A DNA stretch of 48,004 bases, taken from positions 1 through 48,004 of the forward strand of contig JAFUCA010000023.1 of assembly GCA_017459895.1 (NCBI GenBank), read 5' to 3'. Shown here one piece after another: positions 8,131 through 11,226 of the stretch. The position numbers were made by a program, and so were the translations under genes. The notes beneath the pieces are model-generated. The model ran no database searches. It was not told the DNA's origin and saw only the letters and a program-made list of their open reading frames with translations. The DNA is from Bacillota bacterium (GTDB taxonomy: Bacteria; Bacillota; Clostridia; Peptostreptococcales; Anaerovoracaceae). The first letter of the stretch is position 1. Each line of letters begins with the position of its first letter.

Positions 8131-9066
8131 TTATGCTTCGGTGAACAGCGGAGTGGAGTAGTACCGGTCACCGCTGTCCGGCAGCAGGGCCACGATGACC
8201 TTGCCCTTGTTCTCCGGCTTCTTCGCGTACTCGATGCCGGCGTGCAGAGCTGCGCCCGAGGAGATTCCGACGGAAATTCCCTCCTTCTTGGCCAGATACT
8301 TCGCCGCCTTGAAGGCGTCTTCGTTGGTCGCACGGAACACTTCGTCGTAAACCGCTGTGTTGAGAACATCCGGTACGAATCCGGCGCCGATTCCCTGAAT
8401 CTTGTGAACGCCTGCCTTGCCTTCCGACAGGACCGGGGAATCGTCCGGCTCCAGAGCTACCACCTTCACCTCCGGATTCTGCTCCTTCAGATACTCGCCG
8501 GTGCCGGTGACCGTGCCGCCGGTGCCGACGCCGGAAATGAAGACATCGACTTTGCCATCGGTATCGTTCCAGATCTCCGGACCGGTGGTCGCCTTATGGA
8601 TGGCCGGGTTGGCCGGGTTGACAAACTGTCCTGGAATGAATCCGCCGGGGATCTCATTGGCCAGTTCCTCAGCCTTTGCGATGGCGCCCTTCATGCCCTT
8701 CGCGCCTTCCGTCAGAACGATCTCTGCGCCGTAGGCCTTCAGAATGTTTCTTCTCTCGACGCTCATGGTCTCCGGCATAGTCAGGATCGCCCGATAGCCC
8801 TTGGCCGCGGCGATGGCCGCAAGACCGATTCCGGTGTTGCCGGAGGTCGGCTCAATGATAACGGAGCCTTCCTTTAACAGTCCCTTCTCCTCCGCGTCTT
8901 CGATCATGGATTTCGCGATTCTGTCCTTGACGCTGCCCGCCGGATTGAAGTACTCCAGCTTCAAAAGCAACGTCGCCTCCAGGTTCAGGTCCTTCTCAAT
9001 ATTGACCGCCTCTACCAGCGGTGTGTTTCCGATCAGATCCAGTGTTCCTTTATAGATATTTGCCAT
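8131..9066 (-). CDS. cysK: Cysteine synthase A (O-acetylserine sulfhydrylase)
   Basis: The 311-residue PLP enzyme makes L-cysteine from O-acetylserine and sulfide in the cytosol. It has the PLP lysine in NPAGSVKDR (about residue 44), the [10 protein letters not shown] substrate loop and the phosphate-binding glycine loop GTGGTVTG, with normal family length. It follows metY by 37 nt on the same strand and shares its leader. The C-terminal tail is short and ends DRYYSTPLF, close to the usual CysK ending. Annotation is secure; CysK versus CysM is judged by overall resemblance. Confidence 0.95.
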
Positions 9067-9103: not shown

Positions 9104-10387
9104 TTATTTGATTGCTGCGAATCCCTTCTCCAGGTCCGCAATGATATCGTCGATGTGCTCCGTTCCGATGGAGAGCCGGATCGTGCTCTGGGTGATCCCC
9201 TGATCCAGGAGTTCCTCTTCGGTCAGCTGCGAGTGGGTCGTCGTCGCCGGATGGATGACCAGGCTCTTGACGTCCGCTACATTGGCCAGCAGAGAGAAGA
9301 TCTCCAGATGATCGATGAACTTCCATGCTTCATCCTTGCCGCCCTTGATCTCAAAGGTGAAGATCGATGCTCCGCCCTTCGGGAAGTACTTCTTGTACAG
9401 CTCGTTGTCCGGATGATCCGGCAGCGACGGATGATTTACCTTCTCCACCAGCGGATGGTTGCTCAGATATTCCACGACCTTTGCCGTGTTCTCCGCGTGG
9501 CGTTCCAGACGCAGGGACAGCGTTTCAACACCCTGCAGCAGCAGGAATGCGCTGAAGGGAGCCAGGGTCGCGCCTGTATCCCGCAGCAGGATCGCCCGGA
9601 TGTAGGTTACGAAGGCTGCCGGACCGACCGCATCGTAGAAGGAGATCCCGTGATAACTCGGATTCGGATCTGCGATATGGGGATACTTGCCGCTGGCTTT
9701 CCAGTCGAACTTACCCGCTTCTACGATGACGCCGCCCAGCGTGGTGCCGTGTCCGCCGAGGAACTTGGTCGCAGAGTGTACAACGATGTCTGCGCCGTGT
9801 TCGATCGGTCGGATCAGATAAGGAGTCCCGAATGTATTGTCGATGACCAGCGGCAGACCGTGTTTGTGCGCGATCTCCGCAATCGCATCGATGTCCGGGA
9901 TATCGCTGTTCGGATTGCCCAGTGTCTCAAGGAAGACGGCCCTTGTGTCATCCTGAATGGCCGCTTCTACTTCCGCCAGATCATGGGCGTCCACAAAGGA
10001 GGTCTTGATCCCGTACTGCGGTAATGTATGCTCCAGTAAATTGAATGTTCCTCCGTAAATTGTCTTCTGTGCCACGATATGACCGCCCCCTGCGGCCAGC
10101 GCCTCGATGGCATAGGTAATTGCTGCTGCGCCGGAAGCCAGCGCAAGTGCCGCGCTGCCTCCTTCAAGCGCCGCAACTCTCTCTTCCAGTACCCCCTGGG
10201 TAGAGTTGGTCAGACGACCGTAGATATTTCCCGCATCGGCCAGACCGAACCGGTCCGCCGCGTGCTGGCTGTTATGAAAAACGTAGGCTGTGGTCTGATA
10301 GATCGGTACCGCTCTCGCGTCGGTTGCCGGATCCGCCTGTTCCTGTCCCTTATGAATCTGTAATGTTTCAAATCTGTAATCGCTCAT
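9104..10387 (-). CDS. metY: O-acetylhomoserine sulfhydrylase (homocysteine synthase)
   Basis: The 427-residue Cys/Met-metabolism PLP enzyme starts YRFETLQIHKGQ and has the long insert typical of O-acetylhomoserine sulfhydrylases, the PLP lysine in SATKFLGGHG (about residue 206), and the HPATTTHSQLTEEE substrate segment. It makes homocysteine from O-acetylhomoserine and sulfide. It is the first structural gene after the cysteine-rich leader peptide and terminator, with a GGAG site 10 nt before the ATG. With cysK downstream it forms a sulfide-assimilation operon. Confidence 0.95.
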   Translation of the reverse strand: MSDYRFETLQIHKGQEQADPATDARAVPIYQTTAYVFHNSQHAADRFGLADAGNIYGRLTNSTQGVLEERVAALEGGSAALALASGAAAITYAIEALAAGGGHIVAQKTIYGGTFNLLEHTLPQYGIKTSFVDAHDLAEVEAAIQDDTRAVFLETLGNPNSDIPDIDAIAEIAHKHGLPLVIDNTFGTPYLIRPIEHGADIVVHSATKFLGGHGTTLGGVIVEAGKFDWKASGKYPHIADPNPSYHGISFYDAVGPAAFVTYIRAILLRDTGATLAPFSAFLLLQGVETLSLRLERHAENTAKVVEYLSNHPLVEKVNHPSLPDHPDNELYKKYFPKGGASIFTFEIKGGKDEAWKFIDHLEIFSLLANVADVKSLVIHPATTTHSQLTEEELLDQGITQSTIRLSIGTEHIDDIIADLEKGFAAIK

Positions 10388-10410: not shown

Positions 10411-10448
10411 TAAAAATACCCGGTAGCTTGCATGTTTTCTCCCGGGCA
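10411..10448 (-). terminator. Leader terminator (attenuator) upstream of metY
   Basis: Read on the minus strand, CCCGGGAG (10446-10439) pairs with CTACCGGG (10426-10419) with one G-A mismatch; the outer U-A and G-U pairs extend it, the loop is 12 nt, and the stem runs into UAUUUUUAU (10418-10411). It lies inside the metY transcript, after the leader peptide and 24 nt before the metY start codon, so it can only make sense as a conditional terminator. Confidence 0.7.
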
Positions 10449-10539
10449 AATGACAGTCATCAGTCAGGCGGACCTTCCCGTCCGATCCTCAGCGCAGCTT
10501 TAACAGCCGAAGGCGTCCGTCATTCTACATGCCCGGGAG
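10439..10539 (-). promoter_or_regulatory. Antiterminator pairing of the metY leader
   Basis: The RNA segment CUCCCGGGCA (10539-10530), inside the leader peptide codons for Cys21-Ser-Arg-Ala, is perfectly complementary to UGCCCGGGAG (10448-10439), the 5' arm of the terminator. After a 5-nt bulge, AAUGAC (10524-10519) pairs with GUCAUU (10454-10449), giving 16 pairs in total. This helix and the terminator cannot coexist. Between them sits a small hairpin (CGGAC/GTCCG, 10469-10484). The arrangement is that of transcription attenuation controlled by ribosome position; it has not been tested. Confidence 0.65.
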
Positions 10540-10601
10540 CAAAGCATTCGACAACAACACATCGTGTGATTGTTCTGATTGAATTTGCTTTTGCCCATCA
10601 T
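10500..10601 (-). CDS. Cysteine-rich leader peptide of the metY-cysK operon
   Basis: The open frame encodes 33 residues starting MMGKSKF, preceded by AGGAGG five nucleotides before the ATG. It contains six Cys: three in a row at positions 15-17 (TGT TGT TGT), then 21, 25 and the last residue 33. It lies about 40 nt downstream of the predicted transcription start and upstream of the attenuator. Such a run of codons for the operon's own end product is the hallmark of leader-peptide attenuation (as in his, trp and leu operons, and poly-Cys leader frames of actinobacteria). It is too short for normal gene calling. A larger frame running upstream past the promoter is ignored because the internal ATG has the good ribosome-binding site. 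Confidence 0.75.
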   Translation of the reverse strand: MMGKSKFNQNNHTMCCCRMLCSRACRMTDAFGC

Positions 10602-10647
10602 CTCCGCCTCCTTCTTCTCGTATTTGTTCTCTGTTCGGAACGATGCT

Positions 10648-10676
10648 ATATTAACACCACTTACCCACCATGTCAA
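10648..10676 (-). promoter_or_regulatory. Promoter of the leader-metY-cysK operon
   Basis: Minus strand TTGACA (10676-10671), 17-nt spacer, TAATAT (10653-10648): a near-consensus vegetative promoter. Transcription would start near 10641, giving a leader of about 250 nt. The spacer carries GGTGGGTAA, the complement of a 9-mer also present in the divergent Rrf2 promoter. Confidence 0.75.
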
Positions 10677-10750
10677 TAGGTTTTTAGAAATTATTTTATT
10701 TTTTCGAAATACGTCGGATGCAAAGGCTGGAGACACTTGATTTACCCACC
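10661..10750. promoter_or_regulatory. Repeated TTACCCACC elements, candidate Rrf2 operators
   Basis: The 9-mer TTACCCACC occurs at 10661-10669 (within the metY promoter spacer) and again at 10742-10750 (between the -35 and -10 of the Rrf2 promoter). Both copies are followed within about 30 nt by ATAGGT. Placement over both divergent promoters suggests a repressor site used for metY control and autoregulation. This is inference from repetition and position. Confidence 0.45.
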
Positions 10751-10766
10751 TAACCTGCAGTATAAT
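10737..10766 (+). promoter_or_regulatory. Promoter of the Rrf2 regulator gene
   Basis: TTGATT (10737-10742), 18-nt spacer, TATAAT (10761-10766), 28 nt before the ATG. An AAGGTGGTG ribosome-binding site follows. Confidence 0.6.
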
Positions 10767-10794
10767 AGGTAATTGAACGAAAGGTGGTGAAAAC

Positions 10795-11226
10795 ATGATC
10801 TCAACGAAAGGACGTTACGCACTGCGGGTTATGATCGACCTGGCGGAGCATCGCAACGGCAGCTTCATTCCCCTGAAGGATATCGCCGCCCGGCAGGAGA
10901 TCTCCAAGAAATACCTCGAAATCATCGTCAAGACCATGGTCGAAGGCGGCCTGATCACCGGACTCAGCGGCAAAGGCGGCGGATATCAGCTGTGCCGCGA
11001 GCCGGAGGAGTACACGGTGGGAGAGATTCTGGAACTGATGGAGGGGACCCTTTCTTCGGTCGCCTGTCTTGCGGATCCGGATTACATCTGTTCCAGGAAG
11101 AACATCTGTCAGACCCTGCCCATGTGGGAGGAATACGACCGTCTGGTCCGTGACTTCTTTTACAATAAAAAACTGAGCGACCTGATGTCCTATCCGGACG
11201 GCCGCCCATCGGATTATATCATTTAA
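10795..11226 (+). CDS. Rrf2 family transcriptional regulator (CymR/IscR type)
   Basis: The 143-residue protein has the Rrf2 winged helix (MISTKGRYALRVMIDLA, with SGKGGGYQL forming the wing) and three Cys in the C-terminal part spaced CLADPDYICSRKNIC, where some relatives bind an iron-sulfur cluster or sense cysteine. It is divergent from the metY-cysK operon and so is its likely local regulator, as CymR is for cysteine genes in other Firmicutes. Its own promoter contains one copy of the shared TTACCCACC element. Whether it senses the cysteine synthase complex, Fe-S status or something else cannot be read. Confidence 0.85.
   Translation: MISTKGRYALRVMIDLAEHRNGSFIPLKDIAARQEISKKYLEIIVKTMVEGGLITGLSGKGGGYQLCREPEEYTVGEILELMEGTLSSVACLADPDYICSRKNICQTLPMWEEYDRLVRDFFYNKKLSDLMSYPDGRPSDYII

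Follow-up and report, generated by a model that had tools for sequence, protein, structure and literature searches.

Classical attenuators such as those of the trp, his, leu, and thr operons combine control codons, a region 2 freed by a ribosome stalled upstream, and mutually exclusive antiterminator and terminator structures. Poly-cysteine leader frames are reportedly the subject of an experimental paper by Canestrari et al. from 2020 (as cited in PMC9094748). Such frames have been described for cys operons of mycobacteria and Propionibacterium acnes and for cbs of Bifidobacterium longum, where the available portion of the article places the Cys runs near the stop codon, describes no conserved terminator hairpins, and proposes Rho (PMC1262725). 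The uORFC-8-2 motif is located upstream of cysS in Rhodobacterales; the excerpted text gives it an intrinsic terminator and a uORF with tandem Cys codons, in most cases codons 14-15 (PMC8632094). A Cys-specific T-box controls cysK and ubiG in Clostridium perfringens, and the accessible part of that study mentions clostridia with cysK lacking the T-box, suggests other mechanisms for them, and notes cysteine-gene control in clostridia without a Cys T-box as an open question (PMC2940859). Histidine leader peptides have been identified in bacilli, with no leader-peptide attenuation previously known outside the Proteobacteria and Actinobacteria as stated in the extract of the source (PMC2965389).

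The region upstream of metY-cysK in the window (the whole 48,004-nt stretch of DNA analyzed) very probably encodes a ribosome-mediated transcription attenuator sensing cysteinyl-tRNA. As in the trp, his, leu, and thr systems, it has control codons, a region 2 released by stalling, and mutually exclusive antiterminator and terminator; unlike them, no conserved 1:2 protector hairpin was found (139 elements), and its region 2 falls within the frame, far enough ahead of the stop that a ribosome at the stop codon does not mask it. It resembles the poly-Cys leaders in the short frame, Cys runs, position upstream of cysteine genes, and proposed Cys-responsive attenuation, and differs from them, as far as the article portion describes them, in the Shine-Dalgarno (SD)-led frame, covarying antiterminator, intrinsic terminator, and mid-frame run (PMC1262725). 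With uORFC-8-2, compared by description from the excerpt, it shares an upstream ORF with tandem Cys codons and an intrinsic terminator, whereas that motif belongs to Alphaproteobacteria, precedes only cysS, and is dominated by UGC, and the present element occurs in Clostridia before several sulfur genes with UGU dominant and CGA after the run (PMC8632094). The C. perfringens T-box, in the part of the study available, has in common with it cysK, tRNA-Cys charging as the proposed signal, and premature termination; unlike that RNA, which binds tRNA directly, the present leader gave no T-box match (PMC2940859). The histidine leaders of bacilli, again compared by description from an extract, are likewise ordinary leader-peptide attenuation in Firmicutes, for another amino acid and other genes (PMC2965389).

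At gathering thresholds, nothing in Rfam matched the window, and a search of the elements from six representative loci was likewise negative up to E = 1. The window had no match to the T-box model RF00230; four T-box-like matches lay elsewhere in the genome, each falling short of the gathering score, and the SAM riboswitch (S-box, RF00162) was found neither in the window nor in the genome (93% complete). No published report of this element was recognized in the portions of the full-text literature on leaders and attenuation that were searched, a scope mostly outside subscription journals and preprints.

Locus Organization Upstream of metY-cysK

The following features were assigned:

8131..9066, minus strand: cysK, cysteine synthase A (NCBIfam TIGR01139, 445.5 bits vs. 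cutoff 350.95)
9104..10387, minus strand: metY, O-acetylhomoserine/O-acetylserine sulfhydrylase (NCBIfam TIGR01326, 623.6 bits vs. cutoff 495.1)
10412..10448, minus strand: intrinsic terminator, a hairpin of -10.8 kcal/mol followed by a U-tract
10439..10456, minus strand: region 3, antiterminator 3' strand, overlapping the terminator 5' arm (pairing and covariation)
10500..10601, minus strand: leader peptide frame of 33 codons and a stop, containing six Cys (sequence reading and relatives)
10517..10539, minus strand: region 2, antiterminator 5' strand, CUCCCGGGCA plus AUGACGG (pairing and covariation)
10545..10550, minus strand: CGA-AUG codon pair at the switch boundary (CGA count in relatives; boundary from ribosome masking)
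10551..10559, minus strand: control codons Cys15-17, UGU UGU UGU (sequence and ribosome masking)
10607..10613, minus strand: SD sequence AAGGAGG of the leader peptide, 5 nt ahead of the ATG (sequence reading)
10648..10676, minus strand: sigma-70 promoter TTGACA-17-TAATAT (sequence reading)
10663..10681, minus strand: predicted inverted-repeat operator ACCTATTGACATGGTGGGT over the -35 box, probably of Rrf2/CymR type (patterns in relatives)
10795..11226, plus strand: divergent Rrf2-family regulator, candidate repressor (TIGR00738, 112.2 bits, above cutoff)

The promoter boxes (TTGACA at 10676-10671 and TAATAT at 10653-10648, 17-nt spacer) predict an RNA start at ~10641. The leader peptide MMGKSKFNQNNHTMCCCRMLCSRACRMTDAFGC is read from 33 codons at 10601-10500 on the minus strand, and the frame was seen as originally described, with a good ribosome-binding site and six Cys codons, three of them consecutive. 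The terminator UGCCCGG...CCGGGUA-U5 (10448-10412) also ends 24 nt ahead of metY as claimed. The proposed alternative helix linking the leader (codons 21-29) to the terminator 5' arm was present, with 17 pairs instead of the 16 given: 10 pairs in CUCCCGGGCA/UGCCCGGGAG and seven, one of them G.U, in AUGACGG/CUGUCAU. Neither the CCC frame nor the inverted repeat is striking alone because both recur within the window, with CCC in 2/306 short ATG frames and GC-rich 10-nt inverted repeats of 60-130 nt spacing at six separate places (9 rows); the region folded whole was not more stable than its shuffles (z -0.71). The decisive evidence for the predicted element is its conservation.

Distribution and Genes Preceded by the Element

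A covariance model (R1) was built from 27 leaders including the window, whose own R1 score is therefore circular. Among the best 80 of 578 MetY relatives, mostly from the Lachnospiraceae or its genera with some others, the model identified the element upstream of metY in 33/80 named loci and it was absent from 47/80. Genome samples that counted the window's own genome gave matches in 34/296 genomes of its family (after removal of three of the 37 reported, for E above 0.05), 13/391 of its class (after removal of two of the 15 reported, at E 0.02-0.04), and 3/348 of its phylum. Another Clostridia family, that of genome G629, carried the element in 81/115 genomes with up to five matches per genome, and its weaker matches were sampled non-exhaustively (31 taken). 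Searching with the peptide alone by tblastn gave few convincing relatives (46/197 genomes at E up to 1, three below 0.01 besides the window). Carriers include Lachnospiraceae bacterium AC2029 and YSD2013 (loci L091 and L074). The only match outside the class, L264, has operator-like sequence, leader, and metY together, an arrangement that suggests transfer as a cassette. Weak antisense matches of the model corresponded to the self-complementary helix read backwards. L153 (E 0.02) was dropped as a false positive, as was L154 (E 0.04), by eye FMN-riboswitch-like before a ribD-like gene.

In total, 150 rows were collected, three false positives (L224-L226, E 0.06-0.08) were dropped, and the resulting 147 rows comprised 144 distinct elements after identical sequences were collapsed, with any element that had two identifiers entered once (L071/L048, L022/L119, L004/L114, L002/L032, and L112/window). 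L102, for which a wrong frame had been picked, was left out of the codon counts, the protector-hairpin test, the 139-element masking, and the Cys-number range.

The first downstream ORF in the 146 rows with 250 nt upstream was metY in 70, metQ-like in 33, metB-like in 18, cysK in nine, a LysR regulator in six, an ABC ATPase in four, and an amino-acid permease in two; the sample is biased to metY, 33 loci having been reached via MetY. One row each had a gshA-like gene (at a distance of 513 nt), metF, an alcohol dehydrogenase, or no downstream ORF. Most of these genes act in the metabolism or uptake of sulfur amino acids. The downstream metY copies were 39-100% identical to that of the window and the nine cysK products 87-91% identical to its CysK. 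NCBIfam analysis of seven representatives placed metF above its cutoff, whereas the top matches to MetQ, MetN, cystathionine gamma-lyase/synthase, glutamate-cysteine ligase, and LysR did not reach theirs. No clear substrate emerged for the ABC ATPase of L114, with the SaoA and taurine models leading below cutoff. Clustering or inspection by eye was the only basis for naming the L152 metN, the L142 and L144 permeases, and the dehydrogenase. A LysR-family regulator gene lies downstream of the element in L205, L206, L207, L208, L211, and L214, and the element may therefore control a regulator of the same pathway.

Judging from these sequences, one homologous device appears to recur before cysteine and methionine genes in gut Clostridia. 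One homologous cis element that accompanies an Rrf2-type operator ahead of cysteine-synthesis, transsulfuration, and methionine/cysteine-uptake genes of Clostridia would raise leader-peptide attenuation in Firmicutes from a rarity to a regulon-level mechanism.

Conservation of the Leader Frame and the Antiterminator

The leader form M-C-C-(C)-R-M-x-x-S-R-A-x-x-M-A-G-A emerged from a first motif search of the MetY loci. An SD-led start was present in the Cys frame of 139/144 distinct elements, vs. 1/144 and 16/144 for the other two frames. The number of Cys codons differs among copies (1 to 7 per whole frame) by gain or loss of whole codons, and UGU predominates in the leaders (454 UGU, 87 UGC) with the reverse preference in the first downstream genes (29 UGU, 96 UGC). 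The MCCRM core is by eye far better conserved than the N-terminal part, and parts of the core at the RNA level, CGAAUG and CUCCCGGGC, are invariant or nearly so in nucleotides among the 27 starting sequences. Arg can be preceded by Met, Trp, Tyr, Gly, or Phe and can itself be replaced by Leu or Cys.

Conservation of the Cys run and of the complementary arms in related metY leaders had been set as a test of the original prediction, and both were found conserved, with the arms covarying. In the antiterminator of 101 aligned elements, 92.9% of cells were paired, 17/21 pairs had double-sided change, and 120 double-sided changes were counted vs. 27.3 +/- 4.6 in shuffled alignments (0/500 shuffles reached 120) and 19-40 in slid controls, counts that are flattered by the fit of the 101-row alignment to the model structure and inflated by related sequences. 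The 27 starting sequences gave 10 double-sided cells vs. 3.3 shuffled (0/500), five pairs with double-sided change vs. 2.8 (not significant, 41/500), and an RNAalifold covariation term of -0.27, because the core hardly varies in that set. When region 2/3 duplexes of 140 elements were compared with swapped ones, the matched duplexes were stronger in the metY, metQ, and ABC groups, had no advantage in cysK or lysR, and were mixed in the metB-type and dehydrogenase groups; this mixed outcome arises because the GC-rich core is common to the groups, which makes pair counting the better test. In some divergent copies, the peptide over region 2 is altered and the pairing with region 3 kept. A strict search identified a hairpin of -5 or better with a T-tract in 114/144 elements and missed 30/144, of which several look real by eye.

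Ribosome-Masked Folding and Proposed Mechanism

Folding of the window leader with the ribosome footprint masked gave an antiterminator probability of 0.95-0.96 with the A site at Cys15-17 and of 0.75 at CGA18, followed by a terminator probability of 0.93-0.97 at codons 19-29. The core antiterminator returned at codon 30 and persisted to the stop; it was favored (0.92-0.93) with the ribosome at the stop codon and also in the absence of a ribosome. These models agree with the earlier proposals that a stall at Cys15-17 would free the arm to pair and prevent termination and that a stall further on would mask it, and the doubt expressed about full-speed translation was justified, as the antiterminator can re-form with the ribosome at the stop.

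Averaged over 139 elements, the boundary also fell at the Arg codon (R), although less cleanly: antiterminator 0.54-0.58 and terminator 0.32-0.34 with the A site at R-5 to R-1, vs. antiterminator <=0.03 and terminator 0.71-0.73 at R+2 to R+10. With the A site at the last Cys, the antiterminator was favored in 88/139 elements and not favored in 51/139, with antiterminator and terminator probabilities of 0.86 vs. 0.11 in metQ, 0.65 vs. 0.24 in metY, and 0.41 each in cysK-type copies; metB- and lysR-type copies favored the terminator for all of the ribosome positions listed. Region 2 had a mean unpaired probability of 0.31 without a ribosome, 0.38 stalled, and 0.33 at the stop (139 elements), and unpairing in the stalled state compared with no ribosome was higher in 55 and lower in 15 elements.

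The element in silico comprises a short frame with a Cys run, an intrinsic terminator before the first gene, and a covarying, exclusive antiterminator that is selected by stalling, with onward movement selecting the terminator. A stop-codon position that secures the terminator on full translation, usual in the trp type if not strictly defining, was not found in the masked folding. In the proposed mechanism, the leader would be translated in vivo, and when Cys-tRNA is short the ribosome would stall with UGU codons 15-17 in the A site, leaving region 2 (CUCCCGGGCA...AUGACGG) free just ahead to pair with region 3 as it is made. This pairing would take away the terminator 5' arm, and metY-cysK would be transcribed. 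With Cys plentiful, a ribosome on codons 19-29 would cover region 2 during synthesis of region 3 and the terminator, and the terminator hairpin would form and end transcription near 10411. A second control, acting at initiation, is probably supplied by the operator over the -35 box. The modeled ON state is well explained for the window, whereas the OFF state would need a ribosome still crossing region 2 at the time of terminator synthesis; since a stop-codon ribosome lets the antiterminator re-form, we infer that it must depend on timing. Overall, the earlier interpretation is supported and largely holds; it had missed the occurrence of the element before many sulfur genes and the overlap of an Rrf2-type operator with the promoter.

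The CGA Codon After the Cys Run

The motif [CMWYFG]-[RL]-M was present in 132/143 frames, with Arg encoded by CGA in 120/122 cases (94/96 after near-duplicate removal); Arg directly before Cys was CGA in 93/101, and the first downstream genes used CGA for 36/1583 Arg codons (36/1600 when two false rows are counted). A peptide constraint would tolerate synonyms, so this near-invariance indicates selection on the codon or the RNA. The tRNA-Arg anticodons identified in the genome by ARAGORN were ACG, TCT, and CCT, and TCG was not found (17/30 tRNA loci by ARAGORN, overlapping most of the others; 32 tRNA matches, of which two had no locus; genome 93% complete). CGA would be read via an inosine-adenine pair because the sole CGN tRNA seen has anticodon ACG.

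It is conceivable, if rather doubtful, that CGA-AUG forms a second programmed ribosome position, a slow step holding the Cys-replete ribosome over region 2 until the terminator forms. Such a pause would solve the timing problem posed by a stop codon too distant to mask region 2, and the near-invariant CGA makes codon-pair slowing within attenuators testable. The Leu variant at this position uses CTG in 9/10 cases; a slow-codon reading of it was rejected, the genome having a cognate tRNA-Leu CAG, and the variant is hard to reconcile with a programmed pause, itself possible. A general explanation of the CGAAUG core invariance by pairing to sequence further downstream was rejected as weak overall (mean z -0.38, n=143; 42 elements below -1 and 17 above +1). 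By group, z was -1.1 in cysK (n=9), -3.5 in permease (n=2), -3.2 in gshA-like (n=1), -0.55 in metY and metB together (n=86), +0.19 in metQ (n=31), and +1.06 in lysR (n=6) copies, and such pairing is a possible cause in single groups.

Predicted Operator, Rrf2 Gene, and Alternative Explanations

Two loose operator patterns occurred within 300 nt upstream of 109/146 and 117/146 rows, with ACCTATTGACATAGTAGGT as the typical inverted repeat around the -35 box among the 25 examples listed. Neither pattern was found in the cysK (9), permease, gshA-like, or metF rows. The product of the Rrf2 gene matched the CymR and IscR equivalog models below cutoff. The conserved operator over -35 and the neighboring Rrf2 gene suggest repression at initiation too; CymR-like control seems to be added to, not replaced by, attenuation, and from sequence the control looks two-layered. 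The ACCTA...-type repeat over the metY -35 box (10663-10681) has similar stretches, ACCTATTA and GGTGGGTAAA, at 10741-10770 in the promoter region of the Rrf2 gene, suggesting autoregulation.

These operators and the divergent regulator alongside would also fit a terminator acting as constant read-through only, with all regulation by the Rrf2 repressor. This explanation is the most remote of those considered, as it leaves the Cys codons, the ribosome-position boundary, and the covarying antiterminator unexplained, and nine cysK-class rows keep the attenuator without either operator pattern. A ligand- or protein-binding RNA that merely reads as a short frame by chance would account for the (near-)invariant nucleotides of the core, yet is highly improbable given that start and SD keep the frame in 139/144 elements, Cys codons come and go whole, UGU is preferred against the habit of the downstream genes, divergent copies change the peptide over region 2 and keep the region 3 pairing, and Rfam gave no match.

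TnaC is a known case of ribosome stalling in response to tryptophan. An arrest peptide of this general kind, in which nascent M-C-C-R-M would stall the ribosome on a free small molecule (cysteine, SAM, or similar) and not on uncharged tRNA, draws on the strong conservation of the MCCRM core and the Arg that follows the Cys run in most copies. It is unlikely, if less so than the two preceding explanations, because the constraint on Arg falls on the codon, a restriction superfluous for a peptide sensor, the position ahead of Arg varies and Leu or Cys can replace Arg, and Cys per frame ranges so widely. Attenuation by a ribosome sensing cysteinyl-tRNA remains the preferred reading.

Leader Variants

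An SD extended to GAGGCG was seen in 49/143 leaders (window 10605-10611 and other loci) and was rejected as a general feature at that frequency; it is complementary to CGCCUC of the inner hairpin, by which the leader's ribosome site could become masked after one round. A second CGA-UGU-stop (RC*), absent from the window, often closes the frame (e.g., L164, L158, and L068), by eye within a small hairpin with varying flanks. The metY leader frame MSYALINKSYEYMCSNRMCCCRIGSCRMCCCDMCNDCID (L087:3307-3426), unmatched by the model, is very Cys-rich with repeated CRM and without a visible intrinsic terminator, and is possibly a Rho-dependent or diverged form. The leaders of metN-like (L152:1501-1639, minus strand) and metF (L140:1501-1641, plus strand) genes are Met-rich (NMTMMYMCMFRM and NCMGMRM), hinting that the control codons may be tuned to Met.
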